A stretch of DNA of 64,000 nt, from contig JAPPII010000013.1 in the NCBI GenBank assembly GCA_028820845.1, forward strand, positions 62,001 to 126,000, in the 5' to 3' direction. The DNA comes from Candidatus Poribacteria bacterium. Its GTDB lineage: Bacteria; Poribacteria; WGA-4E; WGA-3G. Shown one piece after another: positions 43,837 to 63,873 of the stretch (position 1 is its first letter; each line of letters starts with the position of its first letter). A program made the translations under genes and the position numbers. The notes beneath the pieces are model-generated. The model saw only the letters and a list, made by a program, of their open reading frames with translations, was not told the origin of the DNA and ran no database searches.

Positions 43837-45738
43837 ATGAAAGTATCAAAAAAGAACCTCTATCTCATACTTGGCTGCGTCCTCGTTGTTTATGTCTTCT
43901 TGGCGATTGCACCCGTGTTTGCCCAAGACGCAACCGAGGCAGAATATCGTCCCTTCCCAAAAATTGGCAGCCGGAATGCGGCATGGATCGCTGCGCAGCT
44001 CCACCTCTTATTCGGATCCTTTATTCTCGGTGTCCCAATGTTTGCCGTTATCATTGAATTTATCGGCTGGAAGACGAAGGACATGCGATACGACCGGATG
44101 GCACAAGAGTTTATTAAACTCTGTATGGGCGCGTTTTCGACAACTGCCTTACTCGGTGGTGTACTCGTCTTCATACTGATATGGTGTTATCCGAAGGTGA
44201 TGTCGAAACTCAGTGGTATATTTGGACCGACGATGATCTTTTATGTCGTTCTGTTCTTCGGCGAAACTTTTACGCTTTACCTCTACTCCTACGGATGGGA
44301 TAAGATGCAGGGACGGCATAAAGGGTGGCATCTTTTCCTCGGTGTACTTCTCAATGTTTTCGGCACTGCGATTATGTTTGTCTCTAACGCATGGCTGAGT
44401 TACCAAACCAGCCCGGCAACCCAATACGGCGTACTCTCTGAAGGACGAAGGAAGTCTTGGATAGAAGAGCGGTTGGCTGCTGACCCAGCACTAACACCTG
44501 AAAGTGCCATGGAGGGTGTTACAAGCCATACAATGGTACCCCTCCATAACGAGACAACAGGGGAGTTCATGGGAACCGTTTGGGATGCCGTCAACAACTT
44601 TACGTGGATGCCCATCAACATCCATCGACTCGTTGGGAACATTGCCTTCGGCGGTTCTATTGTCGCTGCTTATGCGGCGTTCCGATTCCTCGTCGCGAAG
44701 ACCAAAGAGGACAAAGCGCATTACGATTGGATGGGATATACCGGCAACTTTATCGCACTTTGTGGACTCATACCGCTGCCTTTCCTCGGCTATTGGCTCG
44801 GTCGGGAAATCTACATGTTCAATAACACGATGGGCATTAACATGATGGGAAGCCTATTTTCGTGGTTATTTATCATTCAGGCAGTGATGATTGGTGTGCT
44901 TTTCATTGGCGCGAATTACTATCTCTGGTCAGGCATGGGAAGGATTGATGGTGCGGAAATCTATGCGCGCTATCGTCCGTACATGATTACGATTATTGTC
45001 ATCTGTGTCGCAATCTGGATGACACCCCGCACACTCTCTAAAATCTCAACTGCCAGTGAACTGAGCGCAATGGGCGGGGCAAACCATCCACACCTCGGAC
45101 TCTTTGGGTTGATGACCGCCAAAAATACGGCTGTTAATATCATTATCCTTACGACTTTCTTGAGTTTCCTGTTTTATCGCCGTTCCGGAAAGACACCAAC
45201 AGCGAGTTGGGGAAAAGTTGGGAATATCGCTATCTCTTCGATCTTCTTCCTCGCGACTGTCTCAATTGTCGTTATCGGTATCGTCGGATTTACCGTTCCA
45301 ACGGACTTGCGCGTCAACGTACTAACACCCTATCAGGTTCTGGTTGCCCTTGCCGTTATGGCGGTTGTTACTGTCGTTGACATCTTCATGTACCGCAAAG
45401 CAACCACATCCGGCACCATTCAGTGGGGAGAGATGACAGACCGTTCACAATACGTCTTGATCCTCCTCGCAATTACATTTACATCGCTTATGGGACTCAT
45501 GGGTTATGCCCGATCGGGTCTGCGAGAAGCGTGGCATATCTTTGGAGTTATGCAAGATACATCCGCTGACGCGTTTACGCCGCTCCTCAGTGAAGCGGTG
45601 AATATCGTAGCGATTATCATGGTCGCTTTCTTTGCCCTCGTCGGATTTATCTTCTGGCTCGGTTTGTGGGGCGAAAAGAAGAAGGAAGAAAAGGCAGCTA
45701 TCGCTGAAGCGGTTGTTGCTGCTGAAAGTGATGATTAG
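43837..45738 (+). CDS. CydA-like (cytochrome bd subunit I-related) membrane protein
   Basis: A 633-residue protein with an N-terminal signal-like helix (YLILGCVLVVYVFLAIAPVFA) and about twelve more helices. Family marks are the LHLLFGSFILGVPMFAVI helix with His56, the candidate heme ligand, MPINIHRLVGN, and the GREIYMFNNTMG turn. The usual GWxxxExGRQPW quinol loop is not seen and no cydB follows. It therefore resembles the bd-like proteins of Nitrospira and planctomycetes rather than a complete bd oxidase. A role within the quinol/cytochrome c block is inferred. Confidence 0.8.
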   Translation: MKVSKKNLYLILGCVLVVYVFLAIAPVFAQDATEAEYRPFPKIGSRNAAWIAAQLHLLFGSFILGVPMFAVIIEFIGWKTKDMRYDRMAQEFIKLCMGAFSTTALLGGVLVFILIWCYPKVMSKLSGIFGPTMIFYVVLFFGETFTLYLYSYGWDKMQGRHKGWHLFLGVLLNVFGTAIMFVSNAWLSYQTSPATQYGVLSEGRRKSWIEERLAADPALTPESAMEGVTSHTMVPLHNETTGEFMGTVWDAVNNFTWMPINIHRLVGNIAFGGSIVAAYAAFRFLVAKTKEDKAHYDWMGYTGNFIALCGLIPLPFLGYWLGREIYMFNNTMGINMMGSLFSWLFIIQAVMIGVLFIGANYYLWSGMGRIDGAEIYARYRPYMITIIVICVAIWMTPRTLSKISTASELSAMGGANHPHLGLFGLMTAKNTAVNIIILTTFLSFLFYRRSGKTPTASWGKVGNIAISSIFFLATVSIVVIGIVGFTVPTDLRVNVLTPYQVLVALAVMAVVTVVDIFMYRKATTSGTIQWGEMTDRSQYVLILLAITFTSLMGLMGYARSGLREAWHIFGVMQDTSADAFTPLLSEAVNIVAIIMVAFFALVGFIFWLGLWGEKKKEEKAAIAEAVVAAESDD

Positions 45739-48113: not shown

Positions 48114-49898
48114 ATGATCTTTTGTCTGACGCAAAGCGTTAAATCACACGGTTGGTTAGACAACGTTCTTTACTTCAGATCCGCAAACCTCCGTTGTCGG
48201 TTTGCTGCGGTTGTGTTGTTTCTGATTTTAGGAGTGTTCTCCATACTTACGGTGGTGGACGCGCAGAACGCGCCGGAGGCTTCCGAGAAAGGAAAAGAAG
48301 TCTATGAGCAAAGCTGCGCACACTGCCACGGCACGGAAGGTCGAGGCGACGGTGCCGCTGCTGAAAATTTGCTCCCGCAACCCAGAGATTTCACACGTGG
48401 CTTGTATAAAATCCGTTCTACAGAAAGCGGGGAACTTCCGACTGACCAGGATCTCTTCGATATTATTACCGAAGGGATGCCGGGTTCGTCAATGCCCGGA
48501 TGGGAAACTGCTCTAAGTGCTAATGATCGCTGGGAAGTCGTCGCTTATATTAAAACATTTCACGGTGGATTTAAAGAACGTGAGGCACCGCCCCGAGAAA
48601 TTAGCTTGGAAGGGAAAATACCCTATTCTCAAGAAAGTGTTGAGATTGGAAAAGGACTTTACACAGAACTCGGTTGTGTGGAATGCCACGGTAACATCGG
48701 ACGTGGGGATGGCACATCTGCGCCTACACTGACAGATGCTTGGAATTTCCAAACCTGGCCCGCAAATCTTACGCAAGGTTGGACTTATCGGGGTGGTTCT
48801 GATGCCGAAGACATCTTCAAACGGTTCATCGGCGGGATCGCCGGTTCACCAATGCCTGCCTTTGAAGGCGATAGTTTCCTGAATTTCGGACTAACGGGAG
48901 GTGAGTCTGACCGCCTCATTGAATTAGAGAACAAAGATGAAATGACTGAGGCGGAGGAGGAGGAATCCGGGCAGCTTTATGAAAAGATGGATGAGGCTGT
49001 TAACGTCGCTCTCACTCGAGCCGAAGGCACAGAGTTGACCGCAGCGGAACAGCAGATGTATGACAACGCAATGAAGGTCGTTTATGAAAAGAGTTGGCAT
49101 CTGGCGAACTATGTGAAGTCGCTTATGCCTGAAGAACGTCCGGAATCTGCGATTGGCAATAACGTACTCCGATCGCAATATGTTCAAGGTGAATTGCCTA
49201 CAATTGATGATACCGTTTGGGAAACGTCCGAAGCCAGCTATTTTCCACTCGTTGGGCAAATCATCGTTGAACCTCGGCAGTTTAACCCGACAATTGATGC
49301 CATAAACGTCAAATCGTTTTATAACGATACAGAGGTTGCCTTCCTCTTTATATGGGACGACCGAACATATACGACTGACGAAATAGACGAGGAAACAGGT
49401 GAGACCCTTGAAGACGCGCTGGCAATCCAATTTCCTGTTAAAGTGCCACAAGGACCGACCGCACCGAAACCTTATTTCTTAGGGGGCGGTAGACTCCCTG
49501 TCTATCTCTGGCACTGGAAAGCCTCCGCACCTGAGCAGGTAACGGAGCTGACAGCTAAGGGGATCAGCAGTGCTGAGGTCCAGGAAGTCCAAGCCGACCT
49601 GCAGGTGAAAAGTGCTTACACGGACGGTCAATATAAATTGTGGGTGAAACGTGCTTTGAAGACCGAAGACAAGAAAGACTTACAACTTGATCCCGGTGTT
49701 TTTGTCCCGATCGCCTTTTCTGCTTGGGATGGTTCAAACGGGGACGTTGACACAAAGCGGACGATAACGAGTTGGTATACTTTCGTTCTTGAACCCGTCC
49801 CCTCTTCAAGGCGATTCGTTTATCCGCCTTTGATCGCAATTCTTTCTTTCGGATTGCTTCTTGGTTTACGCGCAGCCGTGCAGCGGCGAAATTCGTAA
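48114..49898 (+). CDS. Diheme cytochrome c with ethylbenzene-dehydrogenase-type heme b domain
   Basis: A 594-residue protein; GGGGAGG lies 9 bases before the ATG. A signal or anchor helix (FAAVVLFLILGVFSILTVV) is followed by C68-AHCH and C188-VECH heme sites and, from about residue 375, an EB_dh-type domain (the GQIIVEPRQFNPTIDAINVK start and the VYLWHWKA segment). In ethylbenzene dehydrogenase, DMSO-type enzymes and nitrite oxidoreductase this domain binds heme b in the gamma subunit. One C-terminal helix (LIAILSFGLLLGLRAAV) anchors it. No molybdopterin partner is in the window. Confidence 0.85.
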   Translation: MIFCLTQSVKSHGWLDNVLYFRSANLRCRFAAVVLFLILGVFSILTVVDAQNAPEASEKGKEVYEQSCAHCHGTEGRGDGAAAENLLPQPRDFTRGLYKIRSTESGELPTDQDLFDIITEGMPGSSMPGWETALSANDRWEVVAYIKTFHGGFKEREAPPREISLEGKIPYSQESVEIGKGLYTELGCVECHGNIGRGDGTSAPTLTDAWNFQTWPANLTQGWTYRGGSDAEDIFKRFIGGIAGSPMPAFEGDSFLNFGLTGGESDRLIELENKDEMTEAEEEESGQLYEKMDEAVNVALTRAEGTELTAAEQQMYDNAMKVVYEKSWHLANYVKSLMPEERPESAIGNNVLRSQYVQGELPTIDDTVWETSEASYFPLVGQIIVEPRQFNPTIDAINVKSFYNDTEVAFLFIWDDRTYTTDEIDEETGETLEDALAIQFPVKVPQGPTAPKPYFLGGGRLPVYLWHWKASAPEQVTELTAKGISSAEVQEVQADLQVKSAYTDGQYKLWVKRALKTEDKKDLQLDPGVFVPIAFSAWDGSNGDVDTKRTITSWYTFVLEPVPSSRRFVYPPLIAILSFGLLLGLRAAVQRRNS

Positions 49899-52751: not shown

Positions 52752-53417
52752 ATGCTTCGATGGCTCCCTGATAACGTATCAACGTTCGGGCAAGGCGTTG
52801 ATAACCTCTTTTACGCAATTTATTACATTACGCTCGTTACACTAATCCTTGTGATTGGAACCCTTATTGTTTTCCTGATTAAATATCGCCATCGGGAAGG
52901 TCATAAGGCGGAATACATCGAAGGCAGCACAACGCTTGAAATCACTTGGACAGCTGCTACGACTGTGATTGTCTTTGGGCTTGCAATGTTCAGTTACCCA
53001 CAGTGGAATAATATTAAGTCGCCCACACAATTTCCTGAGAATCCAGATGTTGTCGTTCAAGTTAGCGGAAAACAGTTCAACTGGGATATGACGTACCCTG
53101 GACCCGATAACGAATTTGGTACGGATGATGACTTGACATTGGAAAATGAGCTGCATGTACCTGTCAACGCGGTCGTGCATATCCGGTTAACCGCTGTGGA
53201 TGTCATTCACAGTTTTTTTGTGCCGGAATTAAGGCTCAAACAAGACGCATTGCCCGGTCGGTTTATTGATGTCTGGTTTGAGGCGATAAAGGCAGGACGC
53301 TATGAAATTCCATGTGCTGAACTCTGTGGATTCGGACATTCTGGAATGCTGGGATACCTCAATGTGCATGCGCAAACGGACTACGATGCCTGGCTACAAG
53401 AAAGATGGCCTCAGTAG
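52752..53417 (+). CDS. coxB: Cytochrome c oxidase subunit II
   Basis: A 221-residue subunit with two N-terminal helices and a CuA cupredoxin domain. CuA ligands are His153 (IHSFFVPEL), Cys188 and Cys192 with His196 and Met199 in CAELCGFGHSGM. The FVPELRLKQDALPGR loop is canonical. There is no fused cytochrome c domain, so it relies on a separate donor, of which the window offers several. AGGAGG precedes the ATG. It opens the oxidase operon. Confidence 0.96.
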   Translation: MLRWLPDNVSTFGQGVDNLFYAIYYITLVTLILVIGTLIVFLIKYRHREGHKAEYIEGSTTLEITWTAATTVIVFGLAMFSYPQWNNIKSPTQFPENPDVVVQVSGKQFNWDMTYPGPDNEFGTDDDLTLENELHVPVNAVVHIRLTAVDVIHSFFVPELRLKQDALPGRFIDVWFEAIKAGRYEIPCAELCGFGHSGMLGYLNVHAQTDYDAWLQERWPQ

Positions 53418-53437
53418 GCGCAAGGAGAACAATAAAT

Positions 53438-55261
53438 ATGCACGATAATGAACATACTTCACACCATCACGAAGAAAGTTTTATTCGCAAATACATTTTT
53501 TCACTCGACCACAAGACGATCGGTAAACAGTTCCTTATCTATGGACTGATTATGTTCTTCCTCGGTGGCGGGTTGGCACTCCTCTTTAGATGGCAGCTCG
53601 CCTATCCCGAAAGACCGCTCCCGATTATCGGGGCTTCCACACAATACATGGAGGAAGGTGAAATCGTCACAGGTGCCGACAGGATGTGGGAGCGCATCTA
53701 TGAGTCCGAGAAAGAGGAATGGCTTGAAGTCAATATGCCCAACGGTGTTATCGAACCCGCATTTTACAATATGCTGTTCACGATGCACGCCACTATTATG
53801 GTATTTTTCGTCGTTGTCCCAATTTTAGTGGGTGCCTTCGGAAACTTCCTAATCCCCTTGATGATTGGAACGCGCGACATGGCGTTTCCGATCCTCAACA
53901 TGCTCTCTTTTTGGTTTGCAGTCCTCGCCGCAGTCCTCATGACAATTGGATTCTTTGTACCGGGTGGACACGCCGCAGCGGGATGGACAGGCTATGCACC
54001 GCTCTCTTCTGATGCGCAGTGGACGGGGGTGGAATGGGGACAAATCCTCTGGGGGTTGAGTCTGTTTGTTCAGGGGCTTTCTTCGCTCGTCGGATCTATT
54101 AATTATATCACCACGATTATCAATATGCGCGCACCGGGAATGACATTTTTCCGGATGCCTTTGGTGATTTGGTCGCTTTTCATCGTTGCAATCTTGTTGC
54201 TACTCGCTTTCCCCGTACTCTCGTCCGCAATTGTGCTGCTCGTCTTTGATAGGCTTGCAGGGACAACGTTTTTTACGCCTACGGCGGAAGGTGGCGGCGA
54301 CCCGCTCCTGTGGCAGCACCTTTTCTGGTTCTTCGGACACCCTGAGGTCTATATCCTCATCTTACCGGGTATGGGTATCGCTTCTGAGCTAATTGCTGTC
54401 TTTTCACGGAAACCGATCTTCGGATACCGTTCGATGGTCTACGCTATGATTGCCATCGCCTTTTTGGGATGGATCGTCTGGGGACACCACATGTTCCAGA
54501 GCGGCATGCGACCCGGACTCGGCTCTATCTTCATGACAACAACGATGCTTATTGCTGTGCCATCGGCTATCAAAACATTTAACTGGCTCGGCACGATGTT
54601 CAAAGGCTCCATCCGGTTCACAACCCCGATGCTCCACGGTATCGCTTTCGTCTCTATGTTTGTGATTGGTGGCTTGAGCGGTATCTACATGGCAAACACG
54701 CCAGTTGACATCTTCATCCACGATACCTACTACATTGTGGCGCATATTCACTACGTTGTGTTCGGCGGAAGCCTGTTCGCTATTTTCGGCGGTATCATCT
54801 TCTGGTTCCCGAAAATGTACGGGCGGTACATGAACGATGTGCTATCCAAAATTCACTTCTGGTTGACTTTTGTCGCGTTCAACTGCACATTCTTCCCGAT
54901 GCATATTCTCGGTGTAGGTGGGCACATGCGACGCATCTCCAACCCGATGCAGTACGAGTTCCTCCAAGGCTTTGAGGGCATGAACATCTTTATCACGATG
55001 AGTGCGTTCACGCTCGGTTTCGCACAATTGATACTCGTCTTTAACTTCTTCTGGAGCATGTACAAAGGAAAAGTCGCCGAACAGAATCCGTGGCACGTCA
55101 ATACACTGGAGTGGGAAGCACCGACACCCGTACCACACGGCAACTTCGGGCAAATTCCGACTGTCTACCGCGGTCCCTATGAATATAGCGTCCCGGATGA
55201 AGAAGATGATTGGATTCCACAAGCACGACCTGAACATGCACCCGCAACAGGCGGAGACTAA
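53438..55261 (+). CDS. coxA: Cytochrome c oxidase subunit I (A1-type heme-copper oxidase)
   Basis: Start at ATG 53438 after AAGGAG (607 residues). Twelve or more helices. Low-spin heme ligands are His117 and His438, high-spin heme a3 ligand His436 (VAHIHYVV); CuB ligands are His301, His350 and His351, and Tyr305 in GHPEVY is the cross-linked Tyr. The HPEVY Glu marks the A1 subtype with D and K proton paths. It reduces O2 to water and pumps protons. It follows cox2 by 20 bases. Confidence 0.97.
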   Translation: MHDNEHTSHHHEESFIRKYIFSLDHKTIGKQFLIYGLIMFFLGGGLALLFRWQLAYPERPLPIIGASTQYMEEGEIVTGADRMWERIYESEKEEWLEVNMPNGVIEPAFYNMLFTMHATIMVFFVVVPILVGAFGNFLIPLMIGTRDMAFPILNMLSFWFAVLAAVLMTIGFFVPGGHAAAGWTGYAPLSSDAQWTGVEWGQILWGLSLFVQGLSSLVGSINYITTIINMRAPGMTFFRMPLVIWSLFIVAILLLLAFPVLSSAIVLLVFDRLAGTTFFTPTAEGGGDPLLWQHLFWFFGHPEVYILILPGMGIASELIAVFSRKPIFGYRSMVYAMIAIAFLGWIVWGHHMFQSGMRPGLGSIFMTTTMLIAVPSAIKTFNWLGTMFKGSIRFTTPMLHGIAFVSMFVIGGLSGIYMANTPVDIFIHDTYYIVAHIHYVVFGGSLFAIFGGIIFWFPKMYGRYMNDVLSKIHFWLTFVAFNCTFFPMHILGVGGHMRRISNPMQYEFLQGFEGMNIFITMSAFTLGFAQLILVFNFFWSMYKGKVAEQNPWHVNTLEWEAPTPVPHGNFGQIPTVYRGPYEYSVPDEEDDWIPQARPEHAPATGGD

Positions 55262-55274
55262 GAGAAGATATCAA

Positions 55275-55323
55275 GGAAGAATGGAAGAATGGAAGAATGG
55301 GCATACCAACCTCCCATTCTTCC
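55275..55323. repeat. Tandem GGAAGAAT units ending in a hairpin
   Basis: Three ggaagaat units (from 55275) run into ggaagaatggg (55291-55301), which pairs perfectly with cccattcttcc (55313-55323) over an 11-base loop, in the gap between coxA and ctaA. Confidence 0.6.
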
Positions 55324-55371
55324 GACCTTCCAACCAAGAATCTTCCATTTTTTGTTTTCTGGGAATATGGC

Positions 55372-56307
55372 ATGGAGCAACACGTGAGCTATAGTCCGTG
55401 GCTACACAGATTGGCACGCCTCACCGCAGGCGCGACGTTCTTACTGATTGTTATCGGCGGGATCGTTACAAGCACCGACTCTGGATTGGCTGTACCCGAT
55501 TGGCCAACAACCTTCGGGTACAATATGTTCCTCTATCCGTTGTCGGAAATGGTAGGCGGCATTCTGTATGAACATAGCCATCGCCTCATGGGATCCCTCG
55601 TTGGGATATTAACTGTTGGGTTGTTAGTCTTCATATTGGCAAGAGATTCCCGTAAGTGGCTGAAATGGCTCGGACTCATTGCACTCATCGCCGTCGTTGT
55701 ACAAGGCGTTCTCGGTGGACTTCGAGTCACGCAGATTAATCGCAACTTCGCAATCGTACACGCCTGTCTCGCACAAGCGTTTTTCGCGCTCCTCTGTGGG
55801 ATTGCGTGGTTCACTTCTCGCGACTGGTGGCAAGAGAAGCCTGCAGCCCCAATCGTTGCAGCACAGAAATTGAGACGGTTAAGCCTGATTACGACATGCC
55901 TCATCTATGTGCAACTCATCTTTGGAGCGGTTTTACGACATACCGGAAGCAGACTTGATATGCATCTACTTTTTGCCTTCTTGGTCACACTACATATCTT
56001 CTTGTTGGCGAGGCGTATCCTTGGCACAAATGATGAGACACAGAAGAGTGCTGCATCAATGGTATTCGGACTACTCGGACTGCTGGCGGTCCAGTTGATG
56101 CTCGGCACTGGGGCGTTCTTCGCGAAACTTACGGCTTTGGGAGAAACGTTCGCAACTGGGCTCACGGTGACAATCACGACCGCGCACGTCGCAGTCGGTG
56201 CCCTTATGTTAGTGAGTAGTTTTGTCTTGACCCTGAAGATTTACAGATTCACCGAGGCCTCAGTAGCTGTCAGGGCACCCGCGAGTAATGCACTGCTTAC
56301 AGAGTAA
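55372..56307 (+). CDS. ctaA: Heme A synthase (COX15/CtaA family)
   Basis: Start at ATG 55372 (MEQHVSYSPWLHR, 311 residues); an upstream ATG at 55297 lies within the repeat and is unlikely. Eight helices, with the conserved GGIVTSTDSGLAVPDWP motif and the heme-ligand His pairs in EHSHRLMGS and IVHAC, repeated in the second half (MHLLFAF, TTAHVAVG). It oxidises heme O to heme A for the oxidase. Located directly after coxA. Confidence 0.94.
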   Translation: MEQHVSYSPWLHRLARLTAGATFLLIVIGGIVTSTDSGLAVPDWPTTFGYNMFLYPLSEMVGGILYEHSHRLMGSLVGILTVGLLVFILARDSRKWLKWLGLIALIAVVVQGVLGGLRVTQINRNFAIVHACLAQAFFALLCGIAWFTSRDWWQEKPAAPIVAAQKLRRLSLITTCLIYVQLIFGAVLRHTGSRLDMHLLFAFLVTLHIFLLARRILGTNDETQKSAASMVFGLLGLLAVQLMLGTGAFFAKLTALGETFATGLTVTITTAHVAVGALMLVSSFVLTLKIYRFTEASVAVRAPASNALLTE

Positions 56308-56315
56308 GTCTGTTT

Positions 56316-56378
56316 GTAGTAGTGCGATTCATCGCACGTTCTGAAGGGCATACAAGGGGCAATCAATTGCCCCACTAC
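56316..56378. repeat. Compound hairpin repeat
   Basis: gtgcgattcatcgcac (56322-56337) and ggggcaatcaattgcccc (56356-56373) are two perfect hairpins; gtagtg (56319-56324) is inverse to cactac (56373-56378), so the whole can fold as one branched unit between ctaA and ctaB. Confidence 0.55.
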
Positions 56379-56446
56379 GAACCAATGAATTTGAAATATG
56401 GGAAACTGAATAGCCCTAATAGTGACCAGATTTAATAGTTTAAAAC

Positions 56447-57370
56447 ATGCGTTCAACAACAGCGACATTACCAGAGAGTAGTAATACAGCAAATCCATCG
56501 TCCAAGCATGCAACTTTTGTGCAGCGCATCGCCGATGTGATTGAACTCAGCAAACCGCGACTGGTCGTGATGATACTCATTACCACCGCTGCAGGTTTCT
56601 ATCTCGGTGCACGGACTTTCGAGTGGCTTCGGTGCTTGCATACGCTGATCGGTGCAGGATTAACAGCAGCGGGGGTCTTAGGGCTTAACCAATACCTTGA
56701 ACGCGATGCGGACGCACTGATGGAACGGACACAGGAAAGACCAATCCCTGATGGTAGGATGGGTCCGTTGACAGCACTGCTTATTGGGGCTGTTTTTACG
56801 GGTAGCGGGATGCTTTATCTGACGTTTATTGTCAACGTCCTGAGCGGCTTTGTTATCTCGCTGATAGTTGTGAGTTACCTGTTTCTCTATACGCCGCTTA
56901 AACGGAAGACCTCGTTGTGTACGCTCATTGGTGCAGTGCCGGGCGCGCTTCCGCCTGTGGTCGGTTGGGTCGCGGCACGTGGTTCGTTGACAGGTGAAGC
57001 GTGGGTGCTCTTTACGATACTCTTTTTGTGGCAACTACCACACTCGCTCGCAATCGCTTATATCTATCGTGAGGATTACGCAAAAGCCGGATTCCGTCTA
57101 TTACCGGTCATTCATCCCGATGGCGCGAGTACGTGTCGTCAAATTGTGGTGAATTGCGTCGCACTCCTCGGCATAGGTTTATTACCGACGTCGTACGGTG
57201 TTGCTGGTAGCATCTATTTCTTTACGGCACTGGTATCTGGATTGGCGTTTCTGGGAGTTGGTATCTATTTGTCGCGTACACGCTCGGTGAAAGCCGCACG
57301 TTATGTGTTGTACGCCTCACTGCTCTATCTGCCGGTGGTATTTATCACGATGGCATTGGATAAAATTTAG
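56447..57370 (+). CDS. ctaB: Protoheme IX farnesyltransferase (heme O synthase)
   Basis: A 307-residue UbiA-family prenyltransferase with nine helices. The first Asp-rich motif is NQYLERDADALMERTQERP, followed by RPIP; the second is the YIYREDYAKAGFRLLPV region. It adds farnesyl to heme B to give heme O, the substrate of CtaA. It forms part of the oxidase operon between ctaA and coxC. Confidence 0.96.
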   Translation: MRSTTATLPESSNTANPSSKHATFVQRIADVIELSKPRLVVMILITTAAGFYLGARTFEWLRCLHTLIGAGLTAAGVLGLNQYLERDADALMERTQERPIPDGRMGPLTALLIGAVFTGSGMLYLTFIVNVLSGFVISLIVVSYLFLYTPLKRKTSLCTLIGAVPGALPPVVGWVAARGSLTGEAWVLFTILFLWQLPHSLAIAYIYREDYAKAGFRLLPVIHPDGASTCRQIVVNCVALLGIGLLPTSYGVAGSIYFFTALVSGLAFLGVGIYLSRTRSVKAARYVLYASLLYLPVVFITMALDKI

Positions 57371-57383
57371 GAATTGACATAAA

Positions 57384-57638
57384 ATGAACGCGCCAGAGCA
57401 TCGCAAACGAAATCGTCGCCTTGGTATTATTTTATCTCTGCTATTTGTTGCGCTATTTATCATCGCAACGCGGGTAATGATTACGGGTAGCAAAGTACCG
57501 CCTACTGTTGAAGGCGCGATGGAAAGCATTAAAACGCCAGTTCTGGGGATCATTGGGGCGTTTCTTGTTCTCGTGGCGGTCATTGAAATTGTCCTTCGGA
57601 TTGTAAAGAGACGGGTACGTGAAAATGGCGCAGAATAA
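57384..57638 (+). CDS. Small two-helix membrane protein
   Basis: An 84-residue protein with helices at about 12-30 and 50-70 (LGIILSLLFVALFIIA and VLGIIGAFLVLVAVIEIVL). Its last 14 bases overlap the start of the first coxC-like gene. It may be an assembly or structural oxidase subunit. No named family is recognised. Confidence 0.75.
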   Translation: MNAPEHRKRNRRLGIILSLLFVALFIIATRVMITGSKVPPTVEGAMESIKTPVLGIIGAFLVLVAVIEIVLRIVKRRVRENGAE

Positions 57639-58215
57639 CGTTGAAGTTCGTGAACATCCACCCCTAAGCAACGCACGATTAGCCGTTTTAGTCCTACTCG
57701 GTGCAGAGACGATGTTGTTCTCGGGACTCATCGGGGCATTTCTCGTGTTTCGGGTCGGAAATGTTACCTGGCCCCCGCCGTCGCATATCGGGATTGAGCT
57801 CCCACGCGTCATAACCGGCATCAATACTGCATTGCTGCTATTGAGTGCTTACACAATGTTCCAAGCGCATCGTGCGATTCAGCGGGATCAGGTGAAGCAG
57901 CTTCGGCGTTGGCTTCTCATCACAGGTGTGTTGGGAGTCCTATTTCTCGGTGTACAGGGCAGTGAATGGGTGCAACTCATTCGGAATGGGCTTACGCTCC
58001 AATCGGGTGTATACGGCGGTATTTTTTATGTACTCATTGGATGCCATGCACTTCATGTGCTAACGGCTGTTATATGGCTACTGGTCGTTTACGGTATGGC
58101 GGTCGCAGGGCGTTTCTCTGCCGAACGTTACGTCGGCGTTGATACCTGCACCATCTATTGGATTTTTGTTGTCGCGCTCTGGCCGATTCTTTACGTGTTA
58201 GTATATCTCTTATAG
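57625..58215 (+). CDS. Cytochrome c oxidase subunit III-like protein 1
   Basis: Starts at ATG 57625 (196 residues) inside the end of the previous gene. Five helices with subunit III marks: LLGAETMLFSGLIGAFLVFR, FLGVQGSEWVQL and GCHALHVL, then the closing TIYWIFVVALWPILYVLVYLL. It is short like the five-helix bacterial form. A second coxC-like gene lies 345 bases downstream, so the oxidase may have alternative or duplicate subunit III. Confidence 0.9.
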   Translation: MAQNNVEVREHPPLSNARLAVLVLLGAETMLFSGLIGAFLVFRVGNVTWPPPSHIGIELPRVITGINTALLLLSAYTMFQAHRAIQRDQVKQLRRWLLITGVLGVLFLGVQGSEWVQLIRNGLTLQSGVYGGIFYVLIGCHALHVLTAVIWLLVVYGMAVAGRFSAERYVGVDTCTIYWIFVVALWPILYVLVYLL

Positions 58216-58238
58216 AGGTCGTGAAAGGAAGACTAAAA

Positions 58239-58508
58239 ATGAAAAGGTTTTTTCTATGGACTTCCATCTTGATACTCGTCATGCTCATAGTCCCGACATA
58301 TCTTGAGGCATGTCCGGGCTGTAAAAATCTTGACGATCCTATTAATAAAGGTTTTAATTGGAGCATTCTTTTCATGATGGCGATGCCGTTTACGGTTTTC
58401 GGGCTCGTCGGCGGCACGATTTTCTTACATTGGAATGGTTATAAGTTATCGGTCATCGGTAGTGGGTTAAAGAAAAGTATGCTACGCATCAGAAATCTCC
58501 TTAACTAA
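58239..58508 (+). CDS. Small exported or membrane protein with CPGC motif
   Basis: Start at ATG 58239 (89 residues) after gaaag. A signal-like helix (FFLWTSILILVMLIVPTYL) is followed by ACPGCKN and a second helix (ILFMMAMPFTVFGLVGGTIFL). The CPGC pair could bind copper or act in redox. It lies between the two coxC-like genes; a role in oxidase assembly is a guess from position. Confidence 0.7.
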   Translation: MKRFFLWTSILILVMLIVPTYLEACPGCKNLDDPINKGFNWSILFMMAMPFTVFGLVGGTIFLHWNGYKLSVIGSGLKKSMLRIRNLLN

Positions 58509-58545
58509 CAACTAACAACCGACAACTGACAACTAATAATGAATA
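58509..58545. repeat. Short intergenic repeat (CAACTAACAACC type)
   Basis: Tandem aactaacaactaacaaccgacaactgacaacta units, one arm of the repeat family seen at other gaps, just before the AAAGGAG of the next gene. Confidence 0.45.
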
Positions 58546-58560
58546 AAGGAGTTAAATATA

Positions 58561-59211
58561 GTGGAACACGCTACCACTTTAGATCACACTGAAGACATAT
58601 ACGAACCTTCGCTTACGCCGGACAGTCTTGGCAAACTCGGCATGTGGGTCTTCCTCGTCGGGGATACCATGTCCTTTGGTGCCTTGCTGGCGGCTTATGC
58701 GGCGGTTCGGGCAGGTGCCGGTATCGTCGGTTGGGTCCCACCCGACGAGATCCTCGGCATTAACCTGACCGCGTTTATGACATTCCTGCTGATATGCAGC
58801 AGTGTCACTATGGTGAAGGCATTGGAGTCTATTCAGAACGGCAATGTTGGAAGGATGTGCGATTTTCTGGGGTTGACAATTTTAGGTGGATTCATCTTTC
58901 TCGGACTACAGGCTTATGAATGGTACCATCTGATTCACCATGGGTTGACGCTTACCGGTATTCCTGACCACGGGTTGTCAGGTGCAGCGATTAGCGGCTC
59001 AACGCTGTTTGGTCCAACTTTCTACGCCATCACGGGATTCCACGGATTGCACGTAACAGGCGGGGTCATTTATCTGATCGTTATATTGAGAAATGGGTGG
59101 TCAGGTCGGTATACGGCTGAGTTTAACCATGAAGTGGAAATTGTCGGGCTTTATTGGCACTTCGTCGATCTTATCTGGATTATGGTCTTCACCTTCATCT
59201 ATCTATTGTAA
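58561..59211 (+). CDS. coxC: Cytochrome c oxidase subunit III
   Basis: A 216-residue protein from GTG (MEHATTLDHTEDIYEP). Five to seven helices with KLGMWVFLVGDTMSFGALLAAY, FIFLGLQAYEWYHLIHHGLT, the TFYAITGFHGLHVTGGVIYL motif and the closing YWHFVDLIWIMVFTFIYLL. These are standard coxC motifs. It is more canonical than the copy at 57625. It is followed by a subunit IV gene 14 bases later. Confidence 0.94.
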   Translation: MEHATTLDHTEDIYEPSLTPDSLGKLGMWVFLVGDTMSFGALLAAYAAVRAGAGIVGWVPPDEILGINLTAFMTFLLICSSVTMVKALESIQNGNVGRMCDFLGLTILGGFIFLGLQAYEWYHLIHHGLTLTGIPDHGLSGAAISGSTLFGPTFYAITGFHGLHVTGGVIYLIVILRNGWSGRYTAEFNHEVEIVGLYWHFVDLIWIMVFTFIYLL

Positions 59212-59225
59212 GAGGAGGAATAAAA

Positions 59226-59561
59226 ATGGCACAGAATGGACACAAAGAGCATCCAAAATACTTTAAAATTTTCTGGTGGCTTCTTGCACTCACCATTATT
59301 GAGGTGGCTGTGGCGATACCGGAATACTCGATTGTGCTGAAGGCTATTCTGCTCATCGGGTTGGCGAGTTCTAAAGCCGCTTTGGTCGCTATCTATTTCA
59401 TGCATCTGAAGTTTGAGCGGAAAACTTTGGCAGCTATCGTGATAACGCCGTTCCTTATTTGCGTTTTTCTTGTCATCATGCTGATGCCTGACCTTACCGC
59501 AGGGGACAGGCTCGACGGAATAGAAATACCCACAGAAGTCGTTGATACATCAGCGCACTAA
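59226..59561 (+). CDS. Cytochrome c oxidase subunit IV (COX4_pro family)
   Basis: The ATG at 59226 follows AGGAGG; 111 residues. Three helices with the KAILLIGLASSKAALVAIYFMHL motif of bacterial subunit IV. It closes the set of core oxidase subunits. No active-site residues are expected. Confidence 0.9.
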   Translation: MAQNGHKEHPKYFKIFWWLLALTIIEVAVAIPEYSIVLKAILLIGLASSKAALVAIYFMHLKFERKTLAAIVITPFLICVFLVIMLMPDLTAGDRLDGIEIPTEVVDTSAH

Positions 59562-59582
59562 CAGACTGGTTGGGCTCCGAAT

Positions 59583-60224
59583 ATGGAAACACAAACCGGT
59601 AATGCCAGTAGAATTGAACGCCGACTCGACAAAAGCACCTTAATATGGGTAGCGTTGGGTGTTATCATTCTCGGTATTGCAGGTGCCACTCTGTGGTCAG
59701 CCTATGACACCAAACCGGAGACGACGACGGTAGCGAAAGAGACTGCTGTCAGTGTTCCTGACTTTAGTTTAACCAATCAGCAGGGAAAGCCGTTAGCGTT
59801 ATCGGATATGGTGGGCAAAATTTGGGTGGCAGACTTTATCTTCACTAACTGTCCAACGATTTGCCCCGCAATGACCTCGGAAATGGCGCGCCTCCAATCC
59901 GAATTCGTCGCAGACCCGGTCTATTTCGTTTCCTTCTCCGTCGATCCTGAACGGGATACCTCAGAAGTTCTCTCTCGCTATGCGAAAGAATACGGTGCGG
60001 ATGACAGACGCTGGTACTTTCTCACTGGCAAGAAGGAAGGTATTTACGAATTAGCGAAAGACGGTTTTAGTTTAGCCGCCGGACACAAAGGAAGTGAAAT
60101 CCTTCATAGTACACGGTTTGTTCTTGTAGCATCGGACGGGCAGATCTATGATCACTATGACAGTCGGAGTAAACCGGCGATGTTACGCCTCCGGCGCGAC
60201 ATTAAAACACTCCTACAGAAGTGA
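59583..60224 (+). CDS. SCO1/SenC family copper chaperone
   Basis: A 213-residue protein with one N-terminal helix (LIWVALGVIILGIAGATLWS) and a thioredoxin-like domain. Copper ligands are Cys90 and Cys94 in TNCPTICPAM and His175 in ILHSTRF. It delivers copper to the CuA site of subunit II. It overlaps the next gene by 4 bases (ATGA). Confidence 0.94.
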   Translation: METQTGNASRIERRLDKSTLIWVALGVIILGIAGATLWSAYDTKPETTTVAKETAVSVPDFSLTNQQGKPLALSDMVGKIWVADFIFTNCPTICPAMTSEMARLQSEFVADPVYFVSFSVDPERDTSEVLSRYAKEYGADDRRWYFLTGKKEGIYELAKDGFSLAAGHKGSEILHSTRFVLVASDGQIYDHYDSRSKPAMLRLRRDIKTLLQK

Positions 60225-60493
60225 TGGATGTGAACCTCTTAATCTCTGTTGCCGCTTTTCTTGTTCACTTTCCGTTCGGATTTTTTCGCGTCCGTTTTAA
60301 GAGATTAAGCCGTCCTTGGAGTCGGTGTCTTTACATTCCGATCGTCATTAACATCGTCGCCCGCCGTTTTGTCCTCGATTGGGAGTGGCAGACGGCAATG
60401 GTTTATTTATGGCCCGCAACACTGATTGCTCATATACTTGGTGGTTTTCTGGGGACCCGCTACAAACCGCGTGAACAGAGCGAGGCAGATTGA
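60221..60493 (+). CDS. Small membrane protein
   Basis: A 90-residue protein overlapping sco by ATGA, so translation is coupled. It has two or three hydrophobic segments (LLISVAAFLVHFPFGFFRVRF, IPIVINIVARR, LWPATLIAHILGGFLG) and a basic loop. No family is recognised. Linkage suggests oxidase assembly. Confidence 0.7.
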   Translation: MMDVNLLISVAAFLVHFPFGFFRVRFKRLSRPWSRCLYIPIVINIVARRFVLDWEWQTAMVYLWPATLIAHILGGFLGTRYKPREQSEAD

Positions 60494-60530: not shown

Positions 60531-62441
60531 ATGATAAAAAAAATCTACGTACCCGTTGACAATTCGGACTACTCGGATGCCAGTATCGCCTTAGCGGTAG
60601 CGTTCGCGAAGAAGTTCGGATCTCAATTGGTGGGGTCGCATGTCTACGCCGCAAAGATGCACGATGTCCGCTTTAAACAGATGGAGTACACCCTTCCAGA
60701 GGAGTACCAAGACGAAGTTGAACTCGAAAAACAACGCCGAATTCACGATACGCTCATTACCATGGGGTTACAACTCATCTCCGATTCCTATCTGGAGGTT
60801 ATGAAGCAGAAGTGCATCGAACTTGACATCCCATTTGAAGCGAAAATGCCCGAAGGCAAGCACTACATCAAACTCGTTGAGGACATCAAGGCGAGCGACT
60901 ACGATCTCGTAATTATGGGCGCGCTCGGTATGGGTGCCGTCAAGGATAGTCTCATCGGCGGGGTCTGTGAGCGCGTTGTCCGCCGTATTAATACCGACAC
61001 ACTCGTTGTTCGAGACCTTGACCCCATTGAAGCACATGAGGGAAATATCCTCGTCGGTATTGATGGAAGTCCGGAGTCTTTCTCAGGCTTGAAAACCGCT
61101 ATCCAACTCGGACAGAAATTCAACAAACAGGTCGAAGCCGTTGGGGTCTACGATCCCTATCTTCACTATATCGTTTTCAATTCCGTCGTCAATGTGCTAA
61201 CAGAACGTGCCGCACGGACTTTCAGATTTAAGGAACAGGAGCAGCTTCACGAAGAGGTTATTGATACCGGATTGGCAAAAATCTATCAGTCGCATCTTGA
61301 GGTTGCTCGCTCTATCGCAAAAGAAGAACACGGCTACAATCTAAAAATTACGCTGCTCGATGGGAAAGGCTACGAAAAGATTTTACAATACACCCGAAAG
61401 ACAAATCCGTGGCTTCTGGTTTTAGGCAGAATCGGAGTTCACTGTGAAGAGGATGCGGACATCGGTAGCACCGCTGAGAACCTCTTACGCCTGGCACCTT
61501 GTAATGTGCTTTTAGTCAGTCAACGTTATTTCCCACAGATTGATGTGAAAGCAGAGGAAATACTCGTCTGGACGCAGGAAGCGTTGGATAGAATGGAGAA
61601 AGCCCCGCCTCTCGTGCGAGGTATCGCGAAGACCGCTGTTCATCGGTTTGCCATCGAACGCGGGCATTCGGTCATCACCGAAAGCGTCATTGACAAGGCG
61701 ATGGAGGCAATTATGCCACAGCGTGCCTCTGAGAGACTGACACGCGTCGCAAAGGAAATCGCCGAGCAGAAAGTCTTGGAATCCGAGGCCGTGCAGACGT
61801 ACATTTGTGGCGAATGCGGCTACGCTGCCCACAACCAACAACCCGTCCAGTGTCCCGTCTGTAGTGCTGCGCCAGAACGGTTCCAGATGGTGGATAAAGG
61901 TTCACTCCAAAATATCGCTGTGGATGAAGGTGGTGCTGCGGAAGAGGAAACATTTGATGGTGTGCGGCTCCAGTGGTCAGAACAAGCGAAAAAAGCACTT
62001 CGTCGTGTACCCCGCGGCTATATGCGCCGAAACGTCAAAGCGCGAATCGAGAAGTCGGCACGTTCCCAAAAGATTGGGACGATTACCAACGCCTTTGCAA
62101 CCGAGATCATTAACGACAGTATGGGTGAAGCCGCAGCTGTGCGTGAGGATGCCCCTGAACTCAGGGCCGTGCAGTCACAGACAGCAGACTCCCAGAACGC
62201 TGCTGAGGTCGGACAAAGTTTTAAGAGTCCAGTGCAATGGACTCAAGAAGCCATTGAACGTTTGAACTTAGTACCTGCTGGATTCATGCGGAATATCACC
62301 CAGACGCGCATTGAACAGCGAGCACAAGAGAACAATGTCACCGAAGTTACGCTTGATTTCGCCGCTCACGTCATTGAGGACGGCAGAAGTCTGGCAAATG
62401 AAGTCCTTGGGCAGTACTATCAGCAATCAAATCAGGATTGA
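60531..62441 (+). CDS. Tandem UspA protein fused to rubredoxin-like and three PCP_red-like domains
   Basis: Start at ATG 60531 (MIKKIYVPVDNSDYSD, 636 residues); GAGG 6 bases upstream supports it over 60519. Two universal stress domains (about 1-165 and 170-335) each have the nucleotide-binding GxxG-type loop (GALGMGAVKDSLIGG; GRIGVHCEEDADIGS). Then a PCP_red-like helical domain (LVWTQEALDRMEKAPP, from about 343), a rubredoxin-like knuckle pair (CGECGYAA and CPVCSAAP, about 425-445), and two more PCP_red-like units (QWSEQAKKALRRVPRG at 480; QWTQEAIERLNLVPAG at 568). PCP_red is the small C-terminal domain of protochlorophyllide-reductase-type proteins. The fusion at the end of the oxidase operon suggests stress or redox sensing. 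Confidence 0.85.
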   Translation: MIKKIYVPVDNSDYSDASIALAVAFAKKFGSQLVGSHVYAAKMHDVRFKQMEYTLPEEYQDEVELEKQRRIHDTLITMGLQLISDSYLEVMKQKCIELDIPFEAKMPEGKHYIKLVEDIKASDYDLVIMGALGMGAVKDSLIGGVCERVVRRINTDTLVVRDLDPIEAHEGNILVGIDGSPESFSGLKTAIQLGQKFNKQVEAVGVYDPYLHYIVFNSVVNVLTERAARTFRFKEQEQLHEEVIDTGLAKIYQSHLEVARSIAKEEHGYNLKITLLDGKGYEKILQYTRKTNPWLLVLGRIGVHCEEDADIGSTAENLLRLAPCNVLLVSQRYFPQIDVKAEEILVWTQEALDRMEKAPPLVRGIAKTAVHRFAIERGHSVITESVIDKAMEAIMPQRASERLTRVAKEIAEQKVLESEAVQTYICGECGYAAHNQQPVQCPVCSAAPERFQMVDKGSLQNIAVDEGGAAEEETFDGVRLQWSEQAKKALRRVPRGYMRRNVKARIEKSARSQKIGTITNAFATEIINDSMGEAAAVREDAPELRAVQSQTADSQNAAEVGQSFKSPVQWTQEAIERLNLVPAGFMRNITQTRIEQRAQENNVTEVTLDFAAHVIEDGRSLANEVLGQYYQQSNQD

Positions 62442-62542
62442 TATCCTCTAAATCATTTGTTAGTCTATATTGAATACTAAACTTTGGACAATTTTTGCAG
62501 ATGTCCCAGATTGTTTGTTAAACAGATCATCTCTTTTGTACC

Positions 62543-62660
62543 ATAGCCTGTTAGGCTGTGGTCCGAGAGGGTGTCCTTGGGTTCTTTTCTTACGGGTTTG
62601 ATTTTTGCGAACAACCTTGCGAAAAAATCAGGAACACGGATGCACAGCCTAATAGGCTAT
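62543..62660. mobile_element. Inverted-repeat element in a gene-free gap
   Basis: atagcctgttaggctgtg (62543-62560) is the inverse of cacagcctaataggctat (62643-62660) with one mismatch, bounding 118 bases. The left 31 bases also occur at 9062. The rest of the gap 62442-62886 shows only short repeats and no gene. Confidence 0.6.
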
Positions 62661-62886
62661 GCTACAAGTGTCCAAACTTTAGTAAATAACGCAGGTTGCC
62701 ACTCTGTAGCATAATCTTCATAGATTGTGCATCTCAGGGCGCAAACTAAAAGTTTACGCTACAAAATGCTTGGATCCTCGGCAGTTTTCAGTGAAAAACG
62801 AAGTGTGCCTGTCTAAATTCTTGTAAGTAGCAACTTGGGTTATAAGTAGTTTTTGTCGATTGATACATCTTTTTTAGGAGATTTAC

Positions 62887-63873
62887 ATGGGATCCCAAGA
62901 TTCTCGTAGTAAGACAGCTGACTTTACGACGGATGTCTTCTTAAATGAACCCCGTCAGATTACAGTTTCAGACACATATCACGCGGATGTGGATGTTGTC
63001 CTCTTTGATGGGGATTGTAACGACCTCCTCAAAAATATTCCATCAAGTTCAGTGGATCTCGTCATCACATCCCCGCCATACAACATAGGAAAAAAATACG
63101 AAAAAAGAACGTCCTTAGCGTTATATCTAAAAGATATGGAACCTATAATTGCGGAAATAGAGCGGGTACTTGCCCTTACTGGAAGTCTCTGTTGGCAAGT
63201 TGGCAATTACGTCCAAAAAGGTGAGGTTTTTCCGCTTGATATTTATTTTTATGAAATTTTTAAACACTTTGACTTAAAATTGCGGAATCGAATTATTTGG
63301 CGATTTAATCACGGTTTACACTGCAAAAAGCGGTTCTCGGGTCGCTATGAGGTCATCTTATGGTTTACCAAAACTGACGAATACATCTTTAATCTTGATC
63401 CAGTGCGAATTCCCGCGAAATACCCCGGCAAACGACACTTCAAAGGTCCAAAACGCGGTCAGCTTTCGGGAAACCCACTTGGGAAGAACCCTTCTGATAT
63501 TTGGGATGTGGTCAAACAGGATTGGGAAGATGAAGTTTGGGATATTCCAAACGTAAAGGCGAACCACCCAGAGAAAACTGAACATCCATGCCAGTTCCCG
63601 GTTGAATTAGTCCAGCGGTGTGTTTTAGCACTTACACAGCCAAAAGGTGTTGTTTTAGATCCGTATTGTGGTGTCGGATCGACGGTCATCGGAGCCTTAC
63701 AACATAACAGAAGGGCGATTGCTGCTGAACAGGATTCGACCTATGTGGCTATTACTCGTGAGAGAATACAAAAGTTTACCCAAGGCACATTACCGCTCCG
63801 TCCGTTAGGAAAGCCCATTCACCAGCCAACAGGAAAAGAACGTGTCGCACAGTTGCCTTTAGATTGGAAATAG
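62887..63873 (+). CDS. Beta-class site-specific DNA methyltransferase (N4-cytosine or N6-adenine)
   Basis: A 328-residue methylase; AGGAG precedes the ATG. Motif IV is VITSPPYNIG and motif I, later in the chain, VLDPYCGVGSTVIGAL, which is the beta-class order. The TSPPYN form is most common in N4-cytosine enzymes, with N6-adenine also possible. A small ORF begins 14 bases after its stop and resembles the start of BglII/BstYI-type nucleases, so the two may be a type II system recognising a GATC-centred site. That specificity is a guess from the partner. Confidence 0.92.
   Translation: MGSQDSRSKTADFTTDVFLNEPRQITVSDTYHADVDVVLFDGDCNDLLKNIPSSSVDLVITSPPYNIGKKYEKRTSLALYLKDMEPIIAEIERVLALTGSLCWQVGNYVQKGEVFPLDIYFYEIFKHFDLKLRNRIIWRFNHGLHCKKRFSGRYEVILWFTKTDEYIFNLDPVRIPAKYPGKRHFKGPKRGQLSGNPLGKNPSDIWDVVKQDWEDEVWDIPNVKANHPEKTEHPCQFPVELVQRCVLALTQPKGVVLDPYCGVGSTVIGALQHNRRAIAAEQDSTYVAITRERIQKFTQGTLPLRPLGKPIHQPTGKERVAQLPLDWK

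Follow-up and report, generated by a model that had tools for sequence, protein, structure and literature searches.

A tandem universal stress protein fused to PCP_red domains beside respiratory genes: possible scaffold of an undescribed cofactor maturation module

INTRODUCTION

The PCP_red domain is familiar chiefly as a tail, so far unexplained, on an enzyme of chlorophyll biosynthesis, BchB/ChlB of the dark-operative protochlorophyllide reductase, which carries one copy at its extreme C-terminus. Tandem universal stress proteins (USPs) such as Rv2623, TTHA0350 and UspE have two Usp folds per chain and ATP-type motifs, and the site of action of AhbD and NirJ is the propionate side chains of tetrapyrroles (PMC7242693). 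The gene described here joins two Usp domains to three PCP_red copies in a single chain and lies in a 64,000-nucleotide (nt) stretch of a Candidatus Poribacteria bacterium (GCA_028820845.1, contig JAPPII010000013.1, positions 62,001 to 126,000; hereafter the window). Its individual domains are already known and the chains will already be listed by automatic annotation. A description of the fusion, or of the gene module to which it belongs, was not found in the open-licence literature (queries on PCP_red, on Usp with protochlorophyllide or radical S-adenosylmethionine (SAM), and on radical SAM with iodate reductase), and the module goes unmentioned in the main text of two papers on iodate reduction (idr).

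Given that about ten bacterial phyla have the fusion, next to respiratory genes and to partners similar to heme-making enzymes, it is probably part of an undescribed respiratory cofactor maturation system. The more specific reading put forward here, to which a probability of roughly 45% is attached, is that the fusion is the ATP-binding scaffold of a module that provides the adjacent respiratory enzymes with a matured cofactor, which is probably a tetrapyrrole.

RESULTS

Domain architecture of the fusion protein

A first-pass annotation of the window had proposed the N-to-C order Usp, Usp, PCP_red, rubredoxin-like CxxC/CxxC knuckle, PCP_red, PCP_red, and this architecture was confirmed by Pfam and by a PCP_red profile search.

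60531-62441, + strand: Usp/PCP_red fusion gene, 636 amino acids (aa), open frame (translation of the window)
60531..61016, + strand: Usp domain 1, aa 1-162 (Pfam Usp, Foldseek, conservation, motif scan of relatives)
61044..61517, + strand: Usp domain 2, aa 172-329 (Pfam Usp 172-329, alignments)
61569..61700, + strand: PCP_red copy 1, aa 347-390 (PF08369, 48.1 bits)
61800..61883, + strand: rubredoxin-like knuckle CGECG...CPVC, aa 424-451, with C426, C429, C441 and C444 (RUBY_RBDX)
61974..62096 (C13:123974-124096), + strand: PCP_red copy 2, 35.9 bits
62238..62360 (C13:124238-124360), + strand: PCP_red copy 3, 36.4 bits

Translation probably starts at the ATG at 60531, since the aligned relatives open with M-x-K-x-I-Y-V-P at that point. 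Pfam places Usp (PF00582) on two stretches (E 1.5e-35, 123.3 bits against a cut-off of 24) and PCP_red (PF08369) on three (E 8.8e-29, 99.7 bits, well above the curated cut-off); in the genome search each PCP_red copy alone exceeds the 32.5-bit cut-off, so that the claim of three true repeats stands. RUBY_RBDX, the rubrerythrin-type rubredoxin family, matches the knuckle with an E-value of 1.1e-4 and 22 bits, slightly below its cut-off of 26.5. A PCP_red profile made from the copies of the fusion and of the other module proteins finds the C-terminus of BchB/ChlB (2xdq, E 1e-12; 3aek, 5e-9) and also matches the stand-alone domains 2l09 and 2kru, including the stand-alone Asr4154 domain. Chance or weak domain calls are ruled out by these E-values and the profile search. 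An Oxidored_nitro domain was not found by Pfam in the fusion protein, which does not have the architecture of BchB, and BchB models align to it through their C-terminal tail only. The first-pass annotation had also stated that the chlorophyll-biosynthesis reductases in which PCP_red normally sits are absent here, and indeed there is no BchB among the PCP_red matches of this genome. The AlphaFold model (mean predicted local distance difference test score, pLDDT, of 71.6, with a less confident C-terminal half) is matched by Foldseek to the tandem USPs 3cis, 3ab8 and UspE, including Rv2623 and ATP-bound TTHA0350, which upholds the universal stress assignment.

Distribution and conservation

Within its own phylum 66 of 85 genomes encode the full-length protein, with 76-97% identity; they belong to three families (f1-f3) of one order. 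Family f4 and the other classes of the phylum are without it, the exception being G007, which has a Usp pair without PCP_red. A scan of approximately 85,000 bacterial and archaeal genomes returned 249 relatives, the best 80 of which form the basis of all counts out of 80 given here. These 80 come from about ten phyla (taxa represented: Methylomirabilota, Nitrospirota, Chloroflexi, Dormibacterota, Rokubacteria, Alphaproteobacteria, Rhodothermales and other Bacteroidota, Calditrichota, Marinimicrobia, Acidobacteria, deltaproteobacteria and Poribacteria), and almost every intact relative carries one to five fused PCP_red copies. In a set of 53 proteins, from the 80 and related ones, Pfam detected Usp in every one, PCP_red in 50 and the rubredoxin knuckle in 32. 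Across the relatives the number of PCP_red copies ranges from 0 to 5; five-copy versions, up to 886 aa long, are encoded at L147:9998-12658 and at the Chloroflexi loci L099, L105, L110, L125 and L139. Usp pairs of the same family without the PCP_red tail occur at L055/L089, L109 and L140, which suggests that the tail was either added to a Usp pair or lost from it; at L055/L089 and L109 the tail-less pair is followed directly by a radical SAM/PCP_red gene, in respiratory clusters. No plasmid-borne copies were found among the annotated ones, and FNR-type boxes lie upstream of the gene in only 2/80 relatives, which is uninformative.

An ATP-type motif is found in Usp domain 1 of 80/80 relatives. 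In this species it reads GALGMGAVKDSLIGG, with G in place of S/T at the last position; most Poribacteria of the window's order have this G, and most relatives have S/T. The motif of domain 2 (GRIGVHCEEDADIGS) is an intact G-2x-G-9x-G-S and, with one extra residue allowed, is present in 61/80. A helical segment (HDVRFKQMEYTLPEEYQDE...QRRIHDTLITMGLQLISDSYL) is inserted in domain 1, and among the 53 proteins the inserted helices have invariant residues in both domain 1 (H37, H44, R47, F48, M51, E52 and H72) and domain 2 (D208, H212, Q236, H240, D245 and Y252). H44 and H212 appear positionally equivalent, as do H72 and H240, and judging from the alignment they may form a ligand or metal site. All four knuckle cysteines are invariant across 40 aligned relatives. 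The knuckle named by the first-pass annotation is present here but is not universal: it is found in 57/80 relatives and in 0/18 of the alphaproteobacterial group, and among the 23 without it, beyond these 18, a few are truncated by contig ends.

This pattern bears on the proposal of the first-pass annotation that the protein is a redox or energy sensor. In such a sensor the Usp pair would read ATP/ADP, the knuckle would read redox or metal state and PCP_red would signal to respiratory expression or activity. The nucleotide part of the proposal fares well, as ATP-type motifs are found in both Usp domains and a nucleotide response is common among Usp proteins; very high conservation, the respiratory neighbourhood and the persistence of the fusion in Chloroflexi, which are without the radical SAM partner described below, are also in its favour. 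Nevertheless a sensor is unlikely: Pfam identifies no DNA-binding, kinase or signalling output domain on the fusion protein, the knuckle is absent from entire lineages that retain the gene, the neighbours are biosynthetic and the same tail domain is found on an enzyme. Given the identity of the partners (a radical SAM enzyme of the AhbD/NirJ group, an Mrp iron-sulphur (Fe-S) carrier and a protoporphyrinogen oxidase), cofactor synthesis or maturation is indicated rather than sensing.

Partner genes of the fusion

The first-pass annotation had considered a single PCP_red gene, whereas the module has PCP_red genes of at least three types in this genome, namely the Usp fusion, a zinc-ribbon protein and a radical SAM protein. 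The zinc-ribbon/PCP_red protein (176 aa) is encoded directly 3' of an Mrp/NUBPL-type Fe-S ATPase at C13:128.4-129.8 kb, the pair lying approximately 4-5 kb downstream of the fusion gene; the Mrp neighbour is a clear member of the NUBPL Fe-S carrier family (PF10609). Members of the zinc-ribbon family (L007:6289-6819, L189-L201, L206, L207 and L211) follow the pattern MKFLCxxCdxPMK...TNPxETQ...GVKIGG...CPF...PCP_red, usually sit directly after Mrp and have an N-terminal half without a Pfam family. Contig C110 encodes a 454-aa radical SAM/SPASM protein that ends in PCP_red, together with a weaker PCP_red protein of 137 aa.

The radical SAM/PCP_red gene is on a separate contig in this genome and in the same cluster as the fusion in many relatives, where the gene order is ABC (ATP-binding cassette) transporter, coxBA, ctaA, ctaB, coxC, sco, Usp/PCP_red, pyrroloquinoline quinone (PQQ)-type propeller, Mrp, zinc-ribbon/PCP_red, CopD/HemJ-like membrane protein and radical SAM/PCP_red. 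Within the 48 loci that have at least 3 kb of flank on each side, the radical SAM/PCP_red gene is no more than 6 kb from the fusion in 32, often 1-50 nt apart or overlapping, and Mrp is near the fusion in 26. Of 14 genomes in which it is unlinked (Nitrospirota, an acidobacterium and others outside Chloroflexi), 11 have the radical SAM/PCP_red gene at another place, with a strong match over the full length in nine. The distances separating Usp proteins and those separating their radical SAM partners correlate with r 0.91 over 47 loci, compared with 0.53 for the bd-like cytochrome subunit. The PCP_red genes inspected in 18 non-phototroph genomes of other phyla are of the module types plus a few stand-alone repeats, with no BchB among them.

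A protoporphyrinogen oxidase gene lies close to the fusion in 15/18 loci of the alphaproteobacterial group, including 9/9 of those with at least 3 kb on both flanks. It adjoins the radical SAM gene in Alphaproteobacteria, and the one copy scanned exceeds the TIGR00562 cut-off of 97.85 bits with a score of 242.

The best family matches of the radical SAM/SPASM partner are AhbD (TIGR04545, 316.9 bits) and NirJ2 (TIGR04055, 306.7 bits); among 30 members of the partner family the best E-values are 1.3e-98 for AhbD, far short of 500 bits, and 1.8e-107 for NirJ2. In the structural model, which is confident (pLDDT 86), PCP_red folds into three helices and is attached through a flexible linker. That a domain is common to an enzyme and to other proteins is typical of a recognition element, the SPASM group consists mostly of peptide maturases, and the best fold matches are PqqE, SkfB, SuiB and anSME. 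This raises the possibility of a protein- or peptide-modifying module, in which the radical SAM enzyme would modify a respiratory subunit or perhaps the Usp protein and PCP_red would be the recognition tag. Such a module is quite unlikely, however, as the sequence families put the enzyme nearest to the tetrapyrrole enzymes AhbD and NirJ2, a protoporphyrinogen oxidase adjoins it, and no recurrent small precursor peptide family was seen in the loci in a search from 70 aa upward only.

Respiratory neighbourhood

In the window the fusion gene follows an oxidase block, the gene order of which is maintained in relatives.

52752..60224, + strand: adjacent oxidase block (translations)
52752, 53405, 55297 and 56447, + strand: starts of coxB, coxA, ctaA and ctaB
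57619, 58561, 59154 and 59583, + strand: starts of coxC-like, coxC, coxD-like and sco
60221..60493, + strand: 90-aa membrane-protein-like gene in the interval from sco to the fusion, conserved in order, no Pfam family
43837..45738, + strand: bd-like cytochrome subunit (PF01654), partner in 24/80 loci of relatives and frequent in other phyla
48114..49898, + strand: cytochrome c with EB_dh heme-b domain, frequent partner in other phyla

The COX1 search match lies at C13:115519-117009, and the sco gene of the block is SCO1 (PF02630). In the own phylum the match starts of the fusion and COX1 are 6.9-17.7 kb apart in 57/57 genomes with both on a shared contig. Respiratory genes are near the fusion in 41/48 loci, a count for which there is no formal background rate, its weight lying in recurrence across phyla; the respiratory link of the first-pass annotation is thus borne out, but the gene does not always adjoin cox. 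In other phyla the module stands beside bd-like cytochromes and EB_dh cytochromes c, cox, Rieske/cytochrome b, Nar-type or iodate-reductase-like genes, the last of these clusters comprising arsenite-oxidase-type large and small subunits plus MauG-like peroxidases. An obligate cytochrome oxidase partner is ruled out, given that family f4 has COX1 without the module and other phyla pair the module with other enzymes. Marine Alphaproteobacteria have, after an iodate-reductase-like cluster, the fusion gene together with genes for radical SAM/PCP_red and protoporphyrinogen oxidase, and this trio is often accompanied by a HEAT-repeat protein (L093, L101, L114, L127, L132, L138, L151, L152 and L167).

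The five-copy versions of Chloroflexi adjoin an ABC transporter ATPase and Rieske/cytochrome b/bd-like genes, without the radical SAM partner. Retention of Usp/PCP_red in this setting, together with the variable PCP_red copy number, would suit a general assembly factor without chemistry of its own, either a chaperone or a storage or hibernation scaffold for respiratory complexes, with neighbours that are merely co-regulated. This is improbable for two reasons: first, PCP_red is common to an enzyme and to the protein beside Mrp; second, the gene pairs are tight and often overlap.

Three further elements were seen in this region. Shortly after the stop codon of the fusion, at 62477-62682 of the window, lies an element of approximately 206 nt resembling a miniature inverted-repeat transposable element; it has terminal inverted repeats (CTAAACTTTGGACA/CTAAAGTTTGGACA) and, inside these, arms of 25 nt, and a second copy was not found in L007. 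A BglII-type restriction-modification pair (N6_N4 methylase and BglII endonuclease family; window 62887-63873 and L007:2865-3458) splits the fusion gene from the Mrp/PCP_red part in G000 and G082 and is missing at that place in several relatives. A conserved 143-aa orphan gene of the cluster, at L007:3492-3923, has no Pfam family.

DISCUSSION

The proposal of a cofactor maturation scaffold builds on the observed domains and the PCP_red they have in common, on genes that are linked in many phyla, on ATP-type motifs, on the partner families and on the porphyrin-family neighbours. From these we infer ATP binding, docking, a substrate and a product. ATP binding by the Usp pair would set the state of the scaffold, as a nucleotide-gated base, and the PCP_red copies would either hold a tetrapyrrole intermediate or bring the carrier and the enzyme with its PCP_red tail together around the scaffold, PCP_red being a common C-terminal docking domain that would mark the members of the module. 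Mrp would provide Fe-S clusters to the radical SAM enzyme, which would do the chemistry, and in Alphaproteobacteria a dedicated protoporphyrinogen oxidase would feed the same route. In this way the module would make, repair or deliver a cofactor for the respiratory enzymes encoded alongside.

Several observations weigh against the proposal. The radical SAM partner is absent from 11/11 Chloroflexi-type genomes tested, although Usp/PCP_red is kept, and its fold also matches the peptide maturases PqqE, SkfB and SuiB; it is mainly this absence, with the ambiguity of the fold, that keeps the probability at the value given above. PCP_red is without any conserved metal-ligand residue, and family f4 has COX1 and no module. 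The distance correlation is not specific to the partner, coxA (0.88) and a plastocyanin-like gene (0.82) also correlating highly, and permutation leaves shared ancestry in. Furthermore, all 30 radical SAM members fall below the 500-bit cut-offs of AhbD and NirJ, from which it follows that they form a separate sister group. Siroheme decarboxylase (PF17805) is absent in 19/20 module genomes, HemN-type genes are present in 18/20, and genomes of the window's order have ferrochelatase and HemQ-like genes with or without the module.

A siroheme-dependent heme or d1 pathway is ruled out by this absence of PF17805, and the module therefore corresponds to neither the Ahb nor the d1 pathway in its known form. 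Given the HemN-type, ferrochelatase and HemQ-like genes, heme is not obviously dependent on the module, which would be an accessory route and not the sole one. A role as substitute for HemQ or ferrochelatase is likewise unsupported, as genes of both kinds occur irrespective of the module; the HemQ-like match in the window's order is partial (55-68 bits) and hence weak evidence in either direction. Genomes of family f7 (G006-G009 and G011) have strong HemQ matches and no ferrochelatase match, while the window's order has ferrochelatase.

In the non-phototrophs inspected, the main home of PCP_red appears to be a conserved respiratory cluster joining a stress-protein scaffold and a heme-family radical SAM enzyme, and the role of the domain is thus directly testable in a simple setting. 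A broader version of the proposal is rather doubtful: it posits an undescribed cofactor maturation system of respiring bacteria in about ten phyla, with PCP_red as a universal tag, for docking or for holding tetrapyrroles, by which the Usp scaffold, the AhbD/NirJ-like radical SAM enzyme and the Fe-S carrier are connected. BchB would then have borrowed its tail from this non-photosynthetic system. If the maturation role is right, a gene that is highly conserved in Nitrospirota, Methylomirabilota, Rokubacteria, Poribacteria and the marine Alphaproteobacteria with iodate-reductase-like genes would gain a function.

Comparison with known systems

The tandem USPs are the best structure matches of the fusion, which differs from them in its long conserved insertions with invariant His/Asp/Glu, in its C-terminal PCP_red/knuckle array and in the repeated occurrence of respiratory and radical SAM genes near it. 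In contrast to BchB/ChlB, the fusion has no nitrogenase-type Oxidored_nitro domain, and no BchB is among the PCP_red matches of the genomes inspected. The CxxCG...CPVC knuckle resembles the rubredoxin-like domain of rubrerythrin (RUBY_RBDX); the fusion is without the diiron domain and the knuckle is not universal in its family. Among Fe-S carriers of the Mrp/NUBPL/ApbC type the module Mrp is a member, differing in its pairing with a zinc-ribbon/PCP_red protein. Lastly, AhbD heme b synthase, the heme d1 enzyme NirJ and NirJ2 (TIGR04545, TIGR04051 and TIGR04055) are the nearest families of the radical SAM partner, which is set apart from them by scores under the cut-offs in 30/30 members, by the extra PCP_red tail and by the lack of siroheme decarboxylase in 19/20 genomes.
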